Shown piece after piece: positions 36,280 through 36,774 of a stretch of 64,000 nucleotides of DNA (its first letter is position 1; each line of letters opens with the position of its first letter). A program made the position numbers and the translations under genes. The notes under the pieces are model-generated. The model was not told the DNA's origin. It was given only the letters and a program-made list of their open reading frames with translations, and did no database searches. Origin of the DNA: Okeania sp. SIO2B3 (GTDB taxonomy: Bacteria > Cyanobacteriota > Cyanobacteriia > Cyanobacteriales > Microcoleaceae); assembly GCF_010672525.1 (NCBI RefSeq), contig NZ_JAAHGH010000008.1, forward strand, positions 441,739-505,738, given 5' to 3'.

Positions 36280-36774
36280 TTATGAAAAGGAATTAATCAA
36301 ATAATCTAGATAAGCCCAAAATTCAACTAAAGCTTGGGGAGACATATCTCTAGGAGAACAGGCGCGATCGCGCGTGTATTGAAGTGCGCTAACATAAGGC
36401 GCAGTAGGTAAGTTGAGGGCGCGGTAAACTTCGCGCTGACCCGCAATAGCCCAATCATCGAGAGGAGCAGTATCGCCAACTACTAGACAATAATTAATTA
36501 GTCTCAGATAATGACTTAGATCGCGATAACATTTTTCGATCTTAACTTGGGAATCACAAATTCCATCAGGTTTTGTCAGTTCGGGGTACTTTTTCAATAC
36601 CCAGTCACCAGCTTCTTTTGCTACAGCATCCAGACGCTCTGCTAGTTTTTCTGCAGCTTCCATGCGAGGACGAGTACGTTGTAGATTTCCTCGAATAGAC
36701 TCTAAGTCAGAATCATTAGGAAAACGCCCTGCTATGTCAGCAGCATTAATCACAGTTGAAATAAATGATTTCAT
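36280..36774 (-). CDS. Orphan phycoerythrin alpha-like subunit
   Basis: 164 residues, clearly CpeA-like end to end: [78 protein letters not shown]. Cys82 (KCYRDLSHY) and Cys139 ([11 protein letters not shown]) are retained. It differs from cpeA by DTAPLDD for GTGPLDE, by loss of the NACIKKYPY cysteine and by an added Cys73 (DGICDSQ), close to where class-II alpha subunits have a third bilin cysteine. No beta gene is adjacent. The likely ribosome site is weak (GAGAAAAATT). It could be a minor PE alpha, a specialised third-bilin subunit or a regulator. Confidence 0.85.

Follow-up and report, generated by a model that had tools for sequence, protein, structure and literature searches.

The phycoerythrin genes of Okeania sp. 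SIO2B3 raise the question of what a cyanobacterium gains from an alpha subunit encoded without a neighbouring beta gene and carrying an added cysteine. The gene in question, here called the orphan, lies in the window, the whole 64,000-nucleotide stretch of DNA that was analysed, together with two pairs of alpha and beta genes, several HEAT-repeat proteins and a phycobilisome rod linker (Table 1). The first-pass annotation had described it as a complete alpha subunit with Cys82 and Cys139, without a neighbouring beta gene and with a new cysteine, Cys73, within the motif DGICDSQ nine residues before Cys82. All of this was confirmed. The open reading frame is complete and, as an added detail, on the minus strand; the cysteine is present as claimed; and the gene order of the window places no beta gene next to the orphan, the nearest being cpeB1 and cpeB2. 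The protein scores 258.1 bits against the NCBIfam model for C-phycoerythrin alpha, CpeA (NF058506, cut-off 225), and 160.5 bits against Pfam PF00502, with no added domain. The 10.0 Mb genome as a whole encodes three phycoerythrin alphas and two phycoerythrin betas, and both of the other alphas, CpeA1 and CpeA2, are without a cysteine in the loop that holds Cys73.

The orphan is a real, selected and narrowly distributed phycoerythrin alpha isoform without a beta of its own. The best explanation of the evidence as a whole, to which we assign a probability of roughly 55%, is that it is a specialised minor isoform with no dedicated beta, which assembles with a beta subunit encoded elsewhere.

Table 1. 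Features of the window discussed in the text, in order of position.
Feature	Position	Strand	Details
CpeA1, ordinary alpha	23233..23727	-	NF058506 296.3 bits; 63% identity to orphan
CpeB1, candidate beta partner	24100..24660	-	NF058508 322.7 bits
CpeY, alpha-Cys82 phycoerythrobilin lyase	34446..35723	-	NF058505 718.4 bits, cut-off 600
Orphan phycoerythrin alpha subunit	36280..36774	-	164 aa, ATG start; Cys73, Cys82 and Cys139
HEAT-repeat protein, 285 aa, candidate lyase	38103..38960	+	divergent from orphan; accompanies CpeB2A2 in relatives
Phycobilisome rod linker, 264 aa	39635..40429	-	PBS_linker_poly 176 bits, CpcD domain 37 bits
CpeB2, second candidate beta partner	42157..42699	+	NF058508 296.3 bits
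CpeA2, second paired alpha	42773..43261	+	NF058506 280 bits; 56% identity to orphan
HEAT-repeat protein, CpcE/F type, 308 aa, candidate bilin lyase	44024..44950	+	
HEAT-repeat protein, 213 aa	45019..45660	-	HEAT_2, HEAT_PBS; behind cpeA in relatives

Short peptide patterns taken from the orthologue alignment were used to scan 85,462 GTDB species, which returned six relatives of the orphan; the same genes were found in whole-genome searches. These belong to Okeania SIO3B5, SIO2C9 and SIO1I7, O. hirsuta PAB10Feb10-1, Microcoleaceae MO_207.B10 and Trichodesmium sp. jk18x7bins.61 (a MAG), making seven orthologues with the window gene: five from Okeania, one from Microcoleaceae and one from the Trichodesmium MAG. 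Beyond them, identity to the orphan is at most 68% among 390 genomes drawn from the class, and the closest remaining alphas of the family reach 71%, with a beta present where looked at. No relative was found in viral contigs, and the literature searched contained no description of this subunit. At the orthologous loci there is likewise no adjacent beta of the orphan's own; the cpeB that precedes it in MO_207.B10 already has a cpeA. The search for orthologues with Cys73 and without a beta partner was therefore successful, Cys73 being present in all seven, including the diverged Trichodesmium copy that lacks Cys139.

Around this residue, Cys73, Asp74 and Ser75 are invariant in the orthologues, as are Cys82, Arg84 and Asp85, and residues 66-70 and 72 vary. 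The Cys73 codon is TGT in every one of the seven genes, which leaves no synonymous change to measure at this position. In 117 other phycoerythrin alphas this column is never C; the residues found are N, G, I, M, V, H and R. A cysteine within the 60-81 loop occurs in just two of these sequences, both MpeA, one column away. The invariant residues specific to the lineage are W58, G71, C73, A103 and D107. An altered DTAPLDD loop had also been pointed out in the window gene, and this is lineage-wide with respect to G103A and E107D, which occur in 6/6 full-length orthologues and 0/117 other alphas (G and E in all 117), but D101 is limited to two species.

The obvious comparison is with MpeA, the class II alpha of marine Synechococcus, in which alpha-75 binds phycourobilin (PMC2246261) and Cys75 is among the possible sites of MpeU (PMC5318389); no lyase for MpeA Cys75 was identified in the literature found. 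Both proteins have a third cysteine in the loop before the helix of Cys82 or Cys83, and the earlier claim that Cys73 is near the class-II third-bilin position is correct as far as nearness goes. The positions are nevertheless one column apart, as the orphan cysteine precedes Cys82 by nine residues and MpeA Cys75 precedes Cys83 by eight. The flanks differ from the RQPR(R/A)CATEGK context of the two MpeA sequences and, unlike MpeA, the orphan has no mpeB partner beside it.

Phylogeny also separates the two. A tree of 90 rows unites the orphans in a single clade (support 100/99), sister to the CpeA of Gloeobacter, red algae and marine Synechococcus (99/96), and a quick 125-row tree gave the same placement (SH-aLRT 97). 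The orphan clade groups among the phycoerythrin I alphas, and MpeA is a separate clade outside them, so that both the tree and the cysteine position rule out an MpeA orthologue. Since the cysteine sites are near but not equivalent and belong to different clades, they would be of independent origin if both bind bilins. CpeA2, previously termed class-II-like, does lack the loop cysteine as stated, but it is not grouped with true MpeA in the tree. An AU test rejected the forced grouping of the orphans with five CpeA1 sequences from Okeania and the Trichodesmium MAG (p-AU 0.0085), and with the tree this excludes a recent duplication of the host CpeA. The orphan is either an old duplicate or a transfer, and its placement may be subject to some long-branch pull, given a clade branch of 0.35 and a distant CpcA outgroup.

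An AlphaFold2 model based on ten sequences (pLDDT 79.8, pTM 0.71) has Cys73 in the loop just ahead of helix E (residues 76-99), which bears Cys82. The best Foldseek match was the Gloeobacter phycoerythrin alpha 2VJH, with a TM of 0.77 and a whole-chain rmsd of 7.5; this combination shows the single-chain model to be partly misplaced, and bilin-site distances were therefore not taken from it.

Lyase genes bear on what might be attached to Cys73. CpeY is the downstream neighbour of the orphan, as the first-pass annotation had it, on the same strand with 557 bp between them, and the two genes are adjacent in five genomes (the window and G001, G003, G004 and G008). It is, however, the sole copy over the cut-off in its own genome and presumably serves ordinary CpeA, or all alphas, too, which weakens the case for CpeY as a dedicated partner lyase of the orphan and leaves no dedicated third-bilin lyase evident. 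No second alpha lyase of the MpeY or MpeZ kind was found. The 308-aa HEAT-repeat protein gave weak matches to the CpcE, CpcF, CpeY and NblB models, all below the cut-off, and the 213-aa protein may be CpeZ-like, judging from its position and size.

A bilin on Cys73 is, on these observations, a little short of an even bet. The strongest competing explanation is that the residue carries none: it would have a structural or redox function, or simply mark the lineage, in the loop beside the Cys82 bilin of an otherwise ordinary two-bilin alpha. We consider this quite possible, though not probable: the loop context is not MpeA-like, the searches turned up no extra dedicated alpha lyase besides the single CpeY, and the diagnostic changes W58, G71 and I79 lie nearby in the sequence, consistent with a loop that was remodelled locally. 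It has to contend with the retention of Cys73 in every orthologue, even where Cys139 is gone, and with the fact that the only other phycoerythrin alphas with a cysteine in this loop are those in which it binds phycourobilin.

We also considered that the gene is being lost. It would then be the relic of an old duplicated or transferred cpeA without a beta, still readable and of no significance in the phycobilisome. Some of the orthologous loci do look damaged. In the O. hirsuta assembly, codon 47 of the orphan is joined head to head with approximately codon 33 of CpeB2, and orphan codons 1-46, the 5' third of the gene, and the start of CpeB2 are both missing, which may represent a deletion or a misassembly. 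When the lost 5' segment was sought in the rest of the O. hirsuta genome, the intergenic portion of the query matched dispersed repeats and nothing matched over the 5' end of the gene. The copy in the Trichodesmium MAG begins with ATT, has Ser139 in place of Cys139 and sits on a long branch; beside it, the gene for the 308-aa HEAT-repeat protein is split into two frames and CpeY reads 345 aa. In the related genus g7, CpeY stands beside the pair formed by a 194-aa ankyrin-repeat protein and the 285-aa HEAT-repeat protein, as in the window, without the orphan and with no detectable remnant of it in the matching gap between CpeY and the ankyrin-repeat gene, showing that the gene is dispensable.

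Codon adaptation was calculated with five allophycocyanin-like and phycocyanin genes as the reference and 17 other window genes as the background. Across six genomes the orphan scores 0.56-0.62, against 0.65-0.75 in CpeA1 and 0.63-0.71 in CpeA2; two rod linkers have values of 0.56-0.58, and the 17 background genes range over 0.50-0.63. A value lower than that of CpeA and about equal to that of the rod linkers suggests, by this proxy, that the orphan gives a minor product. No conserved promoter motif was recognised, the upstream regions being alike only within species pairs, and the 18 promoter-like matches are near the number in shuffled sequence (13.2, sd 3.2).

The coding sequence itself is under purifying selection. 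Pairwise dN/dS is 0.06-0.33 over a dS range of 0.08-1.9, similar to CpeA1, and low values hold across Okeania and MO_207.B10. Synonymous divergence of the window gene from SIO2C9 and SIO1I7 (dS 0.46 and 0.54) exceeds that of CpeA1 (0.16 and 0.06). The first-pass annotation had named decay in related genomes as a refuting observation, and this applies in part, through the copies of O. hirsuta and the Trichodesmium MAG. Although truncation, an unusual start codon, loss of Cys139, low codon adaptation and absence from g7 speak for a relic, we think one unlikely in view of the selection, the full-length frame in 6/7 genomes and the invariance of the lineage-specific residues.

Gene order in MO_207.B10 is cpeB, cpeA, genes like those for the 213-aa and 308-aa HEAT-repeat proteins, and then the orphan, whose ATG lies 7 nt past the stop of the lyase-like 308-aa homologue. 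A position at the end of such a cpeBA-lyase run is easier to reconcile with work in the phycobilisome than with a separate regulatory function. A role away from the rods, such as that of a single regulatory or light-sensing alpha, which the lack of an adjacent beta, low codon adaptation and substitutions G103A and E107D at otherwise invariant positions might be taken to favour, is very improbable for a plain phycoerythrin alpha with no added domain that ends this run in MO_207.B10 and sits beside cpeY in five genomes.

For a minor isoform that borrows its beta, the following scheme can be drawn up. In length, fold, Cys82, Cys139 and family score the orphan is like CpeA (class I), and it departs from CpeA in Cys73, W58, G71, A103 and D107, in having no adjoining cpeB, in low codon adaptation and in forming its own long-branched clade. 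It would pair with CpeB1 or CpeB2, and the resulting alpha-beta units would occupy a few rod positions or appear in rods made under particular light; the low codon adaptation fits an alpha that is used in some hexamers only. Cys82 and Cys139 would receive the standard bilins from shared lyases. Cys73 is kept by selection and would most likely either carry a third bilin, like that at MpeA Cys75, or tune the Cys82 pocket. A fuller version, in which the orphan is an independently evolved three-bilin alpha derived from phycoerythrin I, with a third bilin cysteine of its own gained close to MpeA alpha-75, and a beta-less plug-in that changes rod absorption without a second beta, is possible but less likely than not.

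In the phycobilisome core, ApcD replaces ApcA at a few positions. The orphan would be a functional analogue, as a minor alpha isoform sharing the bulk beta, though ApcD-type alphas belong to a different phycobiliprotein class. If Cys73 does bind a bilin, then a third alpha bilin has arisen at least twice at nearly the same loop position, in the phycoerythrin II of marine Synechococcus and in marine filamentous cyanobacteria, and phycoerythrin rods could be varied by an alpha swap alone, as the core is with ApcD. This second, simpler system could also help to find the lyase of MpeA Cys75.

Several mobile or repeated elements occur at these loci. Between the orphan and CpeY (window 35850-35951) is a short MITE-like element with 15-nt inverted ends, TCAGGACTTACGCAA. 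Upstream of cpeB1 (window 25061-26739), an ORF resembling an HTH serine recombinase precedes a TnpB ORF; judged by sequence, the pair is IS607-like. A dispersed repeat lies upstream of the SIO1I7 orphan (L047:13161-13479), with about 100 copies in the O. hirsuta genome among the matches listed.

The surroundings of CpeB2A2 vary in other respects. A pair consisting of an ankyrin-repeat gene and the lyase-like gene for the 285-aa HEAT-repeat protein is found near CpeB2A2 in the window (37497-38960) and at loci L118, L119, L121 and L061, in Okeania and genus g7. Long rod linkers are encoded near the CpeB2A2 locus on the minus strand in Okeania SIO3B5 (L061:3499-6564; 1021 aa, four PBS_linker_poly domains) and at L115:14543-16882 (779 aa, three such domains); the matching interval of the window, from the 285-aa HEAT-repeat gene to the CpcD-like ORF, has no such long multi-domain linker gene. 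In genome G050 (L057:9157-10845), an apparently broken cpeB, which reads in two overlapping frames, has a CpeA2-like alpha on either side.
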